Part shown: in pieces, positions 24,019-28,052 of the stretch
Layout of the letters: each line of letters starts with the position of its first letter
Position numbering within the stretch: position 1 is the stretch's first letter
From: Nocardioides bizhenqiangii
GTDB lineage: Bacteria; Actinomycetota; Actinomycetes; Propionibacteriales; Nocardioidaceae
DNA: 64,000 bases
Direction of reading: 5' to 3'
Assembly (NCBI RefSeq): GCF_034661235.1
Contig: NZ_CP141059.1
Location: 806,001 to 870,000 of the forward strand
The notes under the pieces: generated by a model
Told to the model about the DNA's origin: nothing
Databases searched by the model: none
What the model saw: only the letters and a program-made list of their open reading frames with translations
Made by a program: the position numbers and the translations under genes

Positions 24019-25242
24019 TCAGGCCAGCTCTGCCCGCCGCCGGACCAGGTGGGCGCGCTCGGCGTCGTTGGCGCAGAGCGTGATCGCGGTGTCGTACGCC
24101 GCCCGCGCGCGGGCATGGTCGCCCAGCCGGAGCAGGAGCTCGGCGCGCACCGCGGGGAGCCGGTGCCCGGGAAGGGCGACACCGGCGAGCGCGGTCAGGC
24201 CCGCCTCCGGTCCCTCCGCCTCCGCGACCGCGATCGCCCGGCCGAGCCGGACCACCGGGGTCTCCCGCAGCGCGAGCAGCTCGTCGTAACGCTCGACGAT
24301 CCGCTCCCACGCGGTGTCGGACGGTGTGGCCGCGATCGCGTGCTCGGCGGCGATCAGCGCCTGCAGCAGGTAGGGCGCCGGTGGCGCCCCCGTGAGTGGC
24401 CGGAGGAGGTCGAGCGCCTCGCCGATCTCGTCTCCGTGCCAGCGGGAGCGGTCCTGGTCAGGCAGCAGGACCAGCGCGCCGTCGTCGGTCACGCGCGCGT
24501 CCCGTCGCGAGTGCTGGAGGAGCATCAGCGCCTGGAGCGCCGTGAGCTCGCTGTCGTCGTACGGCAGCAGCGTGCGCAGCACCCGCACCAGCCGGATTGC
24601 CTCGCCGGCGAGCTCGGTGCGCACGACGTCGGGGCCGGACCCGGGCGCGTAACCGGCCGTGAAGGCCAGGTACGCGACCTGCGCGACCACGCCCACCCGG
24701 TCGACCAGATCGGCCCCCGTCGGTACGACGAACCGCTCGCCCGCCAGCTTTCTGCGCGCCCGGGTGAGCCGGGCCGCCATCGTCGGCGTGGTCTGGAGGA
24801 AGAGCCGCGCGATGTCGTCGGTGCTGATGCCGAGCACCAGCCGGAGGGTGAGGGCGGCGGCCGCCTCCCGCGAGAGCCGCGGGTGGGCGCAGAGGAGGAC
24901 CAGCCGTAGCCGCTCGTCCAGCAGCTCGTCGCCGGGATCGGCCATCACCCGCTGTGCCTCCTCGGTCAGCTCGGCATCGACGGCGAGCCGCGGCATCGAC
25001 CGCGCCAGCACCTCCTCCGAACGGAGCCGGTCCAGCACCCGGCGACGGGCCGCGGTGAGCAGCCACCCTCCCGGGTTGCCCGGCACGCCGGCGTCGGGCC
25101 AGGTGCGTGCGGCCGCCTCGAACGCGTCGGCCAGGCCGTCCTCGGCGAGGTCGAGCCGGCGGAAGCGGGCGACGAGCAGGGCCAGCAGCCGGCCCCACTC
25201 GTCACGCAGCGCCCTGTCGAGGGCGGTGCCCGCCTCGCTCAG
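24019..25242 (-). CDS. ECF sigma factor with long C-terminal domain
   Basis: An extracytoplasmic-function sigma factor of the group linked to YCII/DGPF proteins, about 407 residues with a CTG start at 25242. Region 2 is LDRALRDEWGRLLALLVARFRRLDLAEDGLADAFEAA, NPGGWLLTAARRRVLDRLR follows, and region 4 is in EAAAALTLRLVLGISTDDIARLF. The long TPR-like C-terminal domain includes FTAGYAPGSGPD and LLQHSRRDARV. The first ATG/GTG, GTG 25086, would delete region 2. CTG 25242 has GGAG 6 nt upstream and overlaps the YCII stop. The cognate signal is unknown. Confidence 0.85.
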   Translation of the reverse strand: MSEAGTALDRALRDEWGRLLALLVARFRRLDLAEDGLADAFEAAARTWPDAGVPGNPGGWLLTAARRRVLDRLRSEEVLARSMPRLAVDAELTEEAQRVMADPGDELLDERLRLVLLCAHPRLSREAAAALTLRLVLGISTDDIARLFLQTTPTMAARLTRARRKLAGERFVVPTGADLVDRVGVVAQVAYLAFTAGYAPGSGPDVVRTELAGEAIRLVRVLRTLLPYDDSELTALQALMLLQHSRRDARVTDDGALVLLPDQDRSRWHGDEIGEALDLLRPLTGAPPAPYLLQALIAAEHAIAATPSDTAWERIVERYDELLALRETPVVRLGRAIAVAEAEGPEAGLTALAGVALPGHRLPAVRAELLLRLGDHARARAAYDTAITLCANDAERAHLVRRRAELA

Positions 25243-25243
25243 C

Positions 25244-25615
25244 TCAAGCTCCGTCGCCGCTGTGGTCGACGGCCGCGCGGACCTCGACCGGCGCGCTGCC
25301 CGGCTCGGCGAGGATGGCGCACACCTCGATCAGGTCGTCGAGGTCGTCGGAGTCGACGACGTAGAAGCCGCTCAGCTGCTCGACGGTCTCGGCGTAGGGC
25401 CCGTCGGTGACCAGAACGCTCCCGTCGGCGTCCCGCGCGACCTTCCGGGTGGTCCGGGAGTGCGTCAGCTCCTCCCCGCCCTTCACGGTGTGACCCCGCT
25501 GGGCCAGCGCCTGGCTGAACTCCTCGTGCTTGGCGAAGACGGCGGCTTGTTCCTCGGGAGAGGCGTTCTCCCACGCGGTCTCGTCACCGGGCAGCAGTAC
25601 GACGTACGTGGTCAT
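25244..25615 (-). CDS. YCII (DGPF) domain protein
   Basis: A 123-residue YciI-like protein. The ferredoxin-like fold shows in TTYVVLLPGDETAWE at the N-terminus. The DGPF/DGPY motif is in VLVTDGPYAETVEQLSGFYVV, with a His (KHEEF) typical of the putative active site. These proteins are regularly encoded next to ECF sigma factors like the one here and may modulate them or be targets. The stop overlaps the sigma factor's start region, so translation is likely coupled. AAAGG upstream may be the ribosome binding site. Confidence 0.9.
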   Translation of the reverse strand: MTTYVVLLPGDETAWENASPEEQAAVFAKHEEFSQALAQRGHTVKGGEELTHSRTTRKVARDADGSVLVTDGPYAETVEQLSGFYVVDSDDLDDLIEVCAILAEPGSAPVEVRAAVDHSGDGA

Positions 25616-25784
25616 GATGGGAACCTTTCAGTTGTCGGCTGGTCTGTCACCGGGATGACGCGCCGAAGTCCTCGAAATCGACGATCGACCCCGAACTCGG
25701 CCCTGCGTCTCGCATCGCGGACGGCGATCTCGAATGGCGGGATCCGGATTCGGCTCCACGCACCGCTGCCGATAGTTTGTGGAC
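25616..25784. other. Promoter region for the SAM-controlled operon
   Basis: A divergent spacer. GATAGT at 25771-25776, about 11 bp before the riboswitch, is a candidate -10 for the rightward transcript. No convincing -35 is seen and no gene is present. Confidence 0.35.
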
Positions 25785-25934
25785 CGCTCATCCAGAGGGA
25801 CTGAGGGAACGGCCCTGCGAAGTCCCGGCAACCGCCACGAGCCTCCGCCTCCCGGCCGATCAGGGTCGGGGAACGGACGTGGAGACGGTGCCAAATCCGA
25901 CCCGACGCGACGGACGTGCCGGGGCAGATGAGAA
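25785..25934 (+). ncRNA. SAM-I (S-box) riboswitch
   Basis: The P1 helix pairs CTCATC (25787-25792) with GATGAG (25927-25932). Between them are the S-box landmarks: AGAGGGACTGAGGGA, the block CGGCCCTGCGAAGTCCCGGC followed by AACC, GGTGCCAAATCC for P3/P4, and the closing CAGATGAG. The 3' strand of P1 runs straight into the AAGGAGG ribosome binding site of the next gene. SAM binding would therefore be expected to block translation initiation; no terminator U tract is visible. It controls the threonine-synthase-like gene. Confidence 0.92.
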
Positions 25935-25943
25935 GGAGGAACC

Positions 25944-27233
25944 GTGAGCGCTGTCGTGACCGAGGCCGACCGTACCGCCGAGCCGAGCCCGGCTTCCGGC
26001 CCCCGCGAGGGCGCGTTCGGCAACGCCGTCGCCCTCGTCTGCCGTGAGTGTCGCCACGAGGTGGGGCTGGGTCCGTACTACGCCTGTCCGGAGTGCTTCG
26101 GCCCGCTCGAGGTCTCCTACGAGTTCCCGGCGATCACCCGTGCGGAGATCGAGGCCGGCCCGCGGAACATCTGGCGCTACCAAGCGCTGCTTCCGGTGCC
26201 CACCGACATCGAGAGCAGCCCCAACACCGAGCCCGGCTTCACCCGGCTCCTCCGCGCCGACAACCTCGGTCGCGAGCTCGGCATCGAGAACCTCTGGGTC
26301 AAGGACGACTCGACCAACCCGACCAACTCCTTCAAGGACCGGGTCGTGGCCTGCGCGCTGAGTGCGGCCCGAGAGCTCGGCGCCAAGGTCTTCGCGTGTC
26401 CCTCGACCGGCAACCTCGCCAACGCGGTCGCCGCCGCGGGCGCCCGGGCCGGCATCAAGACCGTCGTGTTCATCCCGAGCAACCTCGAGCAGCCCAAGCA
26501 GGTCAACTCGGCGATCTTCACCGAGAACCTCGTGGCCGTCGACGGCAATTACGACGACGTCAACAAGCTCGCCTCCGAGATCGCCGGCGAGGAGGAGGGC
26601 TGGGCGTTCGTCAACGTCAACGTGCGCCCCTACTACGCAGAGGGCTCCAAGACCCTCGGCTACGAGATCGCCGAGCAGCTCGGCTGGCGGCTGCCCGACC
26701 AGATCGTGATCCCCGTGGCCTCCGGCTCACAGCTGACCAAGGTCGACAAGGCCTTCCAGGAGCTCATCAAGCTGGGGCTCGTCGAGGACAAGCCCTACCG
26801 CGTCTTCGGCGCCCAGGCCGAGGGCTGCGGCCCCGTCGCCACCGCGTTCAAGGCCGACACCGACGCCATCCGTCCGGTGAAGCCCGACACGATCGCCAAG
26901 AGCCTCGCGATCGGCAACCCGGCCGACGGCATCTACGTCCTCGACATCGCCCGCCGCACCGGCGGCGCCGTCGAGGAGGTCACCGACGAAGAGATCCGCG
27001 AGGGCATCGTGCTGCTCGCCCGGACCGAGGGCATCTTCACGGAGACCGCCGGCGGCACCACGCTCGCGGTCACCAAGAAGCTGGTCGAGACCGGCGTCCT
27101 TGACCCGACCAAGGAGACTGTGGTGATCAACACCGGCCACGGGCTCAAGACCCTCGACGCGGTGTCCGGCCAGGTCCGAGCGGCGGCCACCATCGCGCCG
27201 TCGTACGCCGCCTTCAAGGCCACCGGCATCTGA
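25944..27233 (+). CDS. Threonine-synthase homologue under SAM control
   Basis: A 429-residue fold-type II PLP enzyme of the threonine synthase family. It has an N-terminal zinc ribbon (C33, C36, C48, C51), the PLP Lys131 in NSFKDR, phosphate-loop ACPSTGNLANA, VASGSQLTK and the late FTETAGGTTLA. Threonine synthase converts O-phosphohomoserine to threonine. Here a SAM riboswitch and a downstream sulfur carrier suggest it may instead add sulfide to make homocysteine (inference). GTG 25944 has AAGGAGG 4 nt upstream. No thrA, thrB or metX neighbours are present. The simplest alternative is a plain ThrC. Confidence 0.85.
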   Translation: MSAVVTEADRTAEPSPASGPREGAFGNAVALVCRECRHEVGLGPYYACPECFGPLEVSYEFPAITRAEIEAGPRNIWRYQALLPVPTDIESSPNTEPGFTRLLRADNLGRELGIENLWVKDDSTNPTNSFKDRVVACALSAARELGAKVFACPSTGNLANAVAAAGARAGIKTVVFIPSNLEQPKQVNSAIFTENLVAVDGNYDDVNKLASEIAGEEEGWAFVNVNVRPYYAEGSKTLGYEIAEQLGWRLPDQIVIPVASGSQLTKVDKAFQELIKLGLVEDKPYRVFGAQAEGCGPVATAFKADTDAIRPVKPDTIAKSLAIGNPADGIYVLDIARRTGGAVEEVTDEEIREGIVLLARTEGIFTETAGGTTLAVTKKLVETGVLDPTKETVVINTGHGLKTLDAVSGQVRAAATIAPSYAAFKATGI

Positions 27234-27266
27234 GCCGGCGAACGAACGAGAGAGAGAAGCAGCGAC

Positions 27267-27545
27267 ATGAGCGTCAGCGTCCGGATCCCGACGATCCTGC
27301 GCACCTACACCGGCGGCGAGTCCGAGGTGAGCGCCACCGGCGCTACCCTCGCCGAGGTCCTCGACGACCTCGACGCGAACTACTCCGGCATCAAGGGCAG
27401 GATCCTCGACGAGGACGGCAAGCTCCGCCGCTTCGTGAACGTCTACGTCGGTAACGACGACGTCCGCTTCCAGGACGACCTGGCGACCCCGACCCCGGAC
27501 GGCACCGAGATCTCGGTCATCCCCGCGGTCGCCGGAGGCTGCTGA
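27267..27545 (+). CDS. CysO/MoaD/ThiS-like sulfur carrier
   Basis: A 92-residue ubiquitin-fold sulfur carrier close to mycobacterial CysO (start VSVRIPTILRTYTGG, middle DLDANYSGIKGRI and RFVNVYVGNDDVRF). Such proteins carry a C-terminal Gly-Gly thiocarboxylate that donates sulfur to a PLP enzyme; CysO serves cysteine synthesis with CysM. Here the C-terminus reads PAVAGGC, with one extra Cys after Gly-Gly. It would need trimming, for example by a Mec+/JAMM protease, before activation. It lies 33 bp after the ThrC-like gene in the same SAM-regulated transcript. Confidence 0.9.
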   Translation: MSVSVRIPTILRTYTGGESEVSATGATLAEVLDDLDANYSGIKGRILDEDGKLRRFVNVYVGNDDVRFQDDLATPTPDGTEISVIPAVAGGC

Positions 27546-27587
27546 CGTCATGGCCGGCCGCCGCTCCGTCCCCGCGCTGGTGGCCGG

Positions 27588-28052
27588 GTGACCGACCACC
27601 ACTACGCCCTGGGCCTGACCTGGCTGGGCAACCGCGGCAGCGGCACCAGCGGGTACCGCGACTACGACCGCGACTGCGTGCTGACCGCGGACGGCAAGCC
27701 CGACCTGCTCGGGTCGGCGGACGTCCCGTTCCGTGGCGACGGGTCCCGGTGGAACCCGGAGGAGCTCCTCGTCGCGGCGCTCGCGCAGTGCCACCTGCTG
27801 TCCTACCTGCACTCGGCGGTCACCCGCGGCATCGTCGTCACCGCCTACGCCGATGCCCCCGTCGGCACCATGAGCCAGATCGGTCACGGCGGCCACTTCA
27901 CCTCGGTGGTGCTCCGCCCGCGGGTCACCATCGCCGACCCGGCGCAGGTCGAGCTCGCGCAGGCGATCCATCGCGAAGCCAGCGACAACTGCTTCATCGC
28001 CGCCTCGGTCAACTTCCCCGTGACCCACGAGCCCGAGACGCTGGTGGGCTGA
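27588..28052 (+). CDS. OsmC/Ohr-family protein
   Basis: A 154-residue OsmC-like protein. The two redox Cys residues are in AALAQCHLLSYLH and ASDNCFIAASVNFPV, with the typical WNPEELLVAALAQC helix. OsmC/Ohr proteins reduce organic hydroperoxides with thiols, and some relatives act on persulfides or thiol adducts. It follows the sulfur carrier by 42 bp on the same strand, so it may share the SAM-regulated message. GTG 27588 is the start used. A link to sulfur handling is speculative. Confidence 0.88.
   Translation: MTDHHYALGLTWLGNRGSGTSGYRDYDRDCVLTADGKPDLLGSADVPFRGDGSRWNPEELLVAALAQCHLLSYLHSAVTRGIVVTAYADAPVGTMSQIGHGGHFTSVVLRPRVTIADPAQVELAQAIHREASDNCFIAASVNFPVTHEPETLVG

Follow-up and report, generated by a model that had tools for sequence, protein, structure and literature searches.

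Why should a SAM riboswitch stand in front of a gene that family models assign to threonine synthase? The question is raised by a locus of Nocardioides bizhenqiangii, a soil bacterium whose genome is a single contig of 4,546,893 bases, and from which we analysed positions 806001-870000 (the window, 64,000 nucleotides; features are numbered within it). The genes are called metM and metO here after Streptomyces, in which MetM was described as a homocysteine synthase by Hasebe et al. 2024, with relatives in cyanobacteria (according to the part of PMC12172450 available to us).

The locus and its riboswitch

The SAM-I riboswitch proposed in the preliminary description of this locus is clearly recognised. 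The aptamer model RF00162 matches the plus strand at 25785-25934 over its full length (model 1-108 of 108) with 62.2 bits (E 5e-12) against a gathering score of 44.4, and the one other Rfam match at gathering threshold in the window is a tRNA. With 150 of the genome's 255 candidates scored, a single SAM-I match was found, the one at metM. Its P1 stem pairs CTCATC (25787-25792) with GATGAG (25927-25932), the latter is followed with zero gap by the Shine-Dalgarno motif AAGGAGG (25933-25939), as had been claimed, and the GTG start comes at 25944. P1 3' strand and Shine-Dalgarno together (25927-25939, plus strand) form a probable translational expression platform: no terminator-like site was found in 25600-26050, and the simplest reading is that P1 directly blocks the ribosome site, a probable translational control that rests on position. 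A loose text pattern, GATGA with a Shine-Dalgarno-like motif 0-3 nt later, recurs in 64 of 80 named relatives. When the leader of the window was folded in silico, no clear switch between two states emerged: the Gs at 25935-25936 were unpaired with probabilities of 0.17 and 0.19 when P1 was forced and of 0.73 and 0.94 when its 5' strand was kept single, but G25939 showed the opposite trend (0.82 and 0.10, respectively). In five relatives (L062, L147, L159, L172 and L173) the Shine-Dalgarno motif lies inside a near-palindrome after P1 (AAGGAGGCCTCCTT in L062) that could form a hairpin; none was seen in the window.

Three genes follow on the plus strand, and open reading frames and family matches agree with the arrangement reported before, including the gaps of 33 and 42 bp: metM (25944-27233, 429 aa), which encodes a ThrC-like PLP enzyme matched by PALP and TIGR00260; metO (27267-27545, 92 aa, ending ...PAVAGGC), which encodes a ThiS/MoaD/CysO-like sulfur carrier; and an OsmC-family gene (27588-28052, 154 aa, PF02566 49.9 bits). 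Upstream, the divergent neighbour (24019-25615, minus strand) is a sigma-factor-like protein with region 4 and DUF6596, beside a YCII-domain protein. The closest named relative at the locus is Nocardioides immobilis, with a MetM 93% identical, very near records possibly having been excluded. The earlier inclusion of OsmC in the unit did not hold: a relative is present at just 5 of 80 named loci (flanks of at most 5 kb, some short) and, as read from coordinates, adjoins metO in N. immobilis only. We have therefore rejected it as a third pathway gene; it is probably a bystander or a recent passenger.

The association of riboswitch and metM extends far beyond this genome. We sampled 100 family genomes from a larger group: 86 possess MetM (69-100% identity) and 85 have a SAM-I match, one each. 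All 85 matches share contig and strand with the MetM match and lie 8-132 nt upstream of it (median 34). Only one MetM genome (G002) is without a SAM-I match, and the 14 genomes that lack MetM gave none. For these counts the filters were stricter and 34 candidates were scored in each genome, out of about 90-360, so that weaker copies could be missed. Further loci run against Rfam agree throughout (29 of 29, in sets of 13, 12 and 4), with SAM-I at the MetM 5' end; at L066 and L102 it overlaps the beginning of the tblastn hit to MetM. Class-wide, MetM was found at E 1e-90 or better in 193 of 296 genomes. The 85 of 85 family matches that sit on MetM provide regulatory evidence for its function outside Streptomyces.

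MetM, threonine synthase and the routes to homocysteine

The metM product scores 235.1 bits with PALP and 269.8 bits with the thrC model TIGR00260 (cut-off 167.1), yet a score above this cut-off does not separate MetM from ThrC. Like the threonine synthases of solved structure (6cgq, 2zsj, 1uim, 2d1f), MetM is a PALP-family PLP enzyme and keeps the lysine of the NPTxSFKDR stretch. Unlike ThrC, it carries an N-terminal, zinc-ribbon-like CxxC...CxxC motif, whose cysteines 33, 36, 48 and 51 are invariant across all 125 aligned MetM rows, and it is only 33% identical to the genome's own ThrC. The alignment combines these 125 MetM rows, from the window and 124 loci and representing 119 distinct sequences, with 31 ThrC rows, from 30 loci and the genome's own ThrC (entered twice) and representing 30 distinct sequences. 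At least 95% conservation in both sets is reached at 108 positions: 62 agree, including the NPTxSFKDR stretch with its lysine (K74 in ThrC, K131 in MetM), and at the other 46 MetM does not have the residue fixed in actinobacterial ThrC. The differences (ThrC/MetM, each in its own numbering) comprise T101/L158, S168/N226, N170/R228, R173/Y231, the run G200-N201-A202-G203-N204 against A259-S260-G261-S262-Q263, R255/A322, S303/G370 and A304/G371. Several of the 46 presumably lie within the substrate pocket of ThrC and hold the phosphate. In the tree the MetM rows are separated from six ThrC rows by a long branch with support of 100/100. The database rows that we viewed for named MetM relatives are labelled threonine synthase.

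A second thrC beside the threonine genes, suggested earlier as a check, does exist, and metM is not the only thrC of the genome. There are eight PALP matches in the genome, and the canonical ThrC (369 aa, TIGR00260 290.4 bits) is encoded between hom, the homoserine dehydrogenase gene, and a 298-aa open reading frame that we take for thrB-like from its place and sequence. Might the riboswitch then govern a second threonine synthase or deaminase, which diverts or recycles O-phosphohomoserine at low SAM? The name that NCBIfam gives to MetM speaks for this, as do the results reported for a relative from cyanobacteria that shares 51.6% identity with S. albulus MetM: in vitro it made threonine and deaminated it, with O-phosphohomoserine and sulfide it gave an unidentified peak, and the authors concluded that it is not fully a MetM in the cell (PMC12172450, in the part available to us). 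Nevertheless, we regard a second threonine synthase as very improbable indeed, given the canonical ThrC here and in all 60 class genomes searched, the 46 positions that are fixed otherwise in MetM, and a SAM control and adjacent carrier that would suit threonine synthesis poorly. MetM as a replacement of ThrC was likewise considered and rejected, for 46 of those 60 genomes have MetM as well.

A homocysteine-forming MetM, as we prefer to read it, would have few competitors in this genome. No metX-grade match was found (best 33.6 bits), the MetA model gave no match, and the two strong PF01053 proteins (six weaker matches reach at most 36 bits) reach neither the MetY nor the MetZ cut-off among the 25 models listed per protein; therefore no acylhomoserine route is recognisable. 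The expectation that metB, metY and metX would be missing was thus confirmed for metX and, at cut-off, for metY, but a metB-like gene is present: one PF01053 protein exceeds the cut-off of PRK07811 (680.8 against 513 bits), a model named cystathionine gamma-synthase. For the other the nearest model is cystathionine gamma-lyase, below that model's cut-off. On these two proteins one could build the alternative that transsulfuration is the main source, in which the MetB-like protein joins O-phosphohomoserine and cysteine to cystathionine and MetM is a side route. We consider this very improbable: neither a metX-grade nor a metA homoserine acyltransferase was found, nor, among the 150 of 255 candidates scored, any SAM-I match at the transsulfuration genes, and the cystathionine beta-synthase of the genome (625.4 bits, above cut-off) would fit the reverse direction, in which cysteine is made from homocysteine and the PRK07811 protein acts as lyase. 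MetM thus appears to be the only recognised step to homocysteine here, unless the PRK07811 protein can use O-phosphohomoserine.

In relatives the situation is more varied. We counted metX at a threshold of our own, at least 360 bits, because no match in the sampled genomes reaches the model's curated cut-off of 500 bits; 42 of the 100 family genomes pass, whereas seven with matches of 146-191 bits and one with 84.6 bits, all eight MetM-positive, remained uncounted. MetM and metX occur together in 36 genomes, MetM without metX in 50, metX without MetM in six, and neither in eight; none of the 62 genomes that are at least 99% complete lacks both. An anticorrelation that could have served as proof of function was not found (metX in 36 of 86 genomes with MetM and in 6 of 14 without; Fisher p = 1.0). 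The 36 genomes with both show that MetM need not be the only source of homocysteine, and a second route may exist in many species.

The carrier, its loss and its C-terminus

That the second gene encodes a CysO-like carrier was right as to its family (ThiS, 54.8 bits), with the correction that the protein ends in -AGGC and not in -GG as does the genome's CysO. MetO is 53% identical to this CysO, and its best solved relative is 3dwg chain C.

MetO adjoins MetM at 65 of 80 named loci, in several families, and is absent beside it at 14 of the 79 whose contig continues past MetM. Mapped on the MetM tree (81 rows and 6 ThrC rows), the absence of a neighbouring carrier is explained by two separate events, in Pseudonocardiaceae (12 rows, 100/100) and in the pair N. 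alcanivorans and N. daejeonensis (100/99). All 14 loci of both groups (L043, L050 and, between L089 and L105, 12 from Pseudonocardiaceae) keep SAM-I. Such a twofold loss of MetO, with MetM and riboswitch staying, is possibly a new observation. Where does the sulfur come from in these genomes? In each of the ten (of 14) that we searched, the carrier closest to MetO, with 52-60% identity, is CysO, encoded between mec and cysM, whereas four control genomes possess both MetO and CysO. This suggests CysO as a shared donor. Another ThiS-like protein (37-44%) is encoded elsewhere in five of the ten, so CysO is the best guess but not the only one.

The same loci bear on the question whether MetM takes free sulfide, with MetO serving some other sulfur transfer. 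The 14 loci where MetM stands without MetO would be expected then, but adjacency at 65 loci across several families, the retention of CysO in ten of ten MetO-less genomes searched and the Streptomyces work, which reportedly uses the carrier, argue for a carrier-fed MetM, and we find free sulfide improbable as the donor.

The carrier ends are not uniform. A MetO was found at 92 of 109 loci under a rule that requires GG among the final eight residues and therefore misses longer tails; 71 end in -GG, 15 in -GGC and six otherwise. Tails beyond GG also occur on CysO, in six of ten MetO-less genomes and in one of four controls. Over both carriers the ends include GGC, GGS, GGAR, GGAN, GGAGETA, GGMR and GGSSR, and tailed carriers were seen in the window (27534-27545) and at L182, L183, L184, L185, L187, L188 and L190. 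Residues after GG would imply a trimming step. The peptidase Mec+ hydrolyses the CysO-cysteine adduct (PMC3227635, in the part available to us); this adduct, an amide after Gly-Gly, would end much like -GGC, which makes trimming of -GGC MetO by Mec+ a natural inference.

From these observations we put forward, tentatively and at somewhat less than even chances, that the CysO thiocarboxylate serves both CysM and a SAM-switched MetM in Pseudonocardiaceae and the two Nocardioides species, and that -GGC MetO is a pro-form that mimics CysO-cysteine and is matured by Mec+. If so, the syntheses of cysteine and methionine would have activation and trimming in common, and in some cases the carrier too. 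Carrier sharing could be tested simply in the genomes that have MetM but lack MetO.

The proposed pathway and related systems

We think it very probable, judging from gene content and sequence, that the locus is a SAM-repressed MetM-MetO operon that makes homocysteine from O-phosphohomoserine with sulfur from the carrier. When SAM is scarce, P1 of the riboswitch would open and free the abutting Shine-Dalgarno motif, and MetM and MetO would be made. MetO would be trimmed to its C-terminal Gly-Gly, here by removal of one extra cysteine, probably by the JAMM peptidase Mec+; a JAB-domain peptidase gene does adjoin the CysO and CysM genes, in a separate mec-cysO-cysM cluster. A MoeZ-type ThiF-rhodanese enzyme, for which the one strong ThiF match of the genome, a protein that also has a rhodanese domain, is a candidate, would adenylate and thiocarboxylate the trimmed carrier. 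Thiocarboxylated MetO would then give its sulfur to MetM, which would remove the phosphate from O-phosphohomoserine and place the sulfur on the gamma carbon. The resulting homocysteine would be turned into methionine by a MetH-type enzyme, for which the candidate, named from its length and domain, is an open frame of 1284 aa that contains a homocysteine methyltransferase domain (321.6 bits). Parts, order, conservation, partner genes and the missing acyltransferase genes are observed here; the direction of the switch, the trimming by Mec+, the detailed chemistry and the action of the Nocardioides pair as in Streptomyces are inferred, and likeness to MetM does not by itself settle function.

The direct formation of homocysteine from O-phosphohomoserine with carrier sulfur, as first suggested for this locus, is supported and probably right, considering the separate thrC, the lack of metX-grade and metA matches, and Streptomyces MetM, which turns O-phosphohomoserine into homocysteine (PMC12172450, in the part available to us). 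That source also gives a SAM riboswitch upstream of S. albulus metM, and a carrier-family gene resembling S. albulus metO next to the cyanobacterial relative. The Nocardioides locus likewise has a ThrC-like relative of Streptomyces MetM that is distinct from ThrC, a SAM riboswitch upstream and a carrier gene directly downstream; it differs in genus, in a carrier that ends in -GGC and in the OsmC gene after metO. In a comparison without S. albulus MetM, the window MetM is 64% identical to an S. chattanoogensis protein and 65% to those of four genomes of one genus. One of these four, L248, has a MetM with 94% identity to a named Streptomyces protein; metO adjoins it and SAM-I lies upstream, an arrangement shared by the other three. 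Hasebe et al. 2024 (Appl Environ Microbiol 90:e01247-24) reportedly found that MetM works with thiocarboxylated MetO as donor. The route itself is thus already in print for Streptomyces, and the earlier idea is probably correct but not new. For CysO feeding homocysteine synthesis we found no mention in print, and Hasebe et al. 2024 may contain one; the available part of PMC12452182 does not mention the MetM-MetO gene pair. As MetM proteins carry the label threonine synthase in the named rows that we viewed, methionine synthesis looks incomplete in many actinobacteria and may not be so.

Sulfur donation by a carrier thiocarboxylate is known from other bacteria, and the available part of PMC5764234 cites Krishnamoorthy and Begley 2011 for a methionine route of this kind in Wolinella succinogenes. 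The CysM/CysO/Mec+ system of Mycobacterium tuberculosis resembles the present one in a carrier thiocarboxylate, activated by MoeZ, that supplies a PLP enzyme with a phosphorylated substrate; it differs in making cysteine from O-phosphoserine and in a CysO that ends at the GG motif (PMC3227635, as far as available to us). At the mec-cysO-cysM cluster of the Nocardioides genome no SAM-I match was found among the 150 of 255 candidates scored. The Wolinella route reportedly carries carrier-bound sulfur to homocysteine as well, by a MetY-type enzyme that acts on O-acetylhomoserine, whereas a ThrC-type enzyme and O-phosphohomoserine would take these places in Nocardioides.
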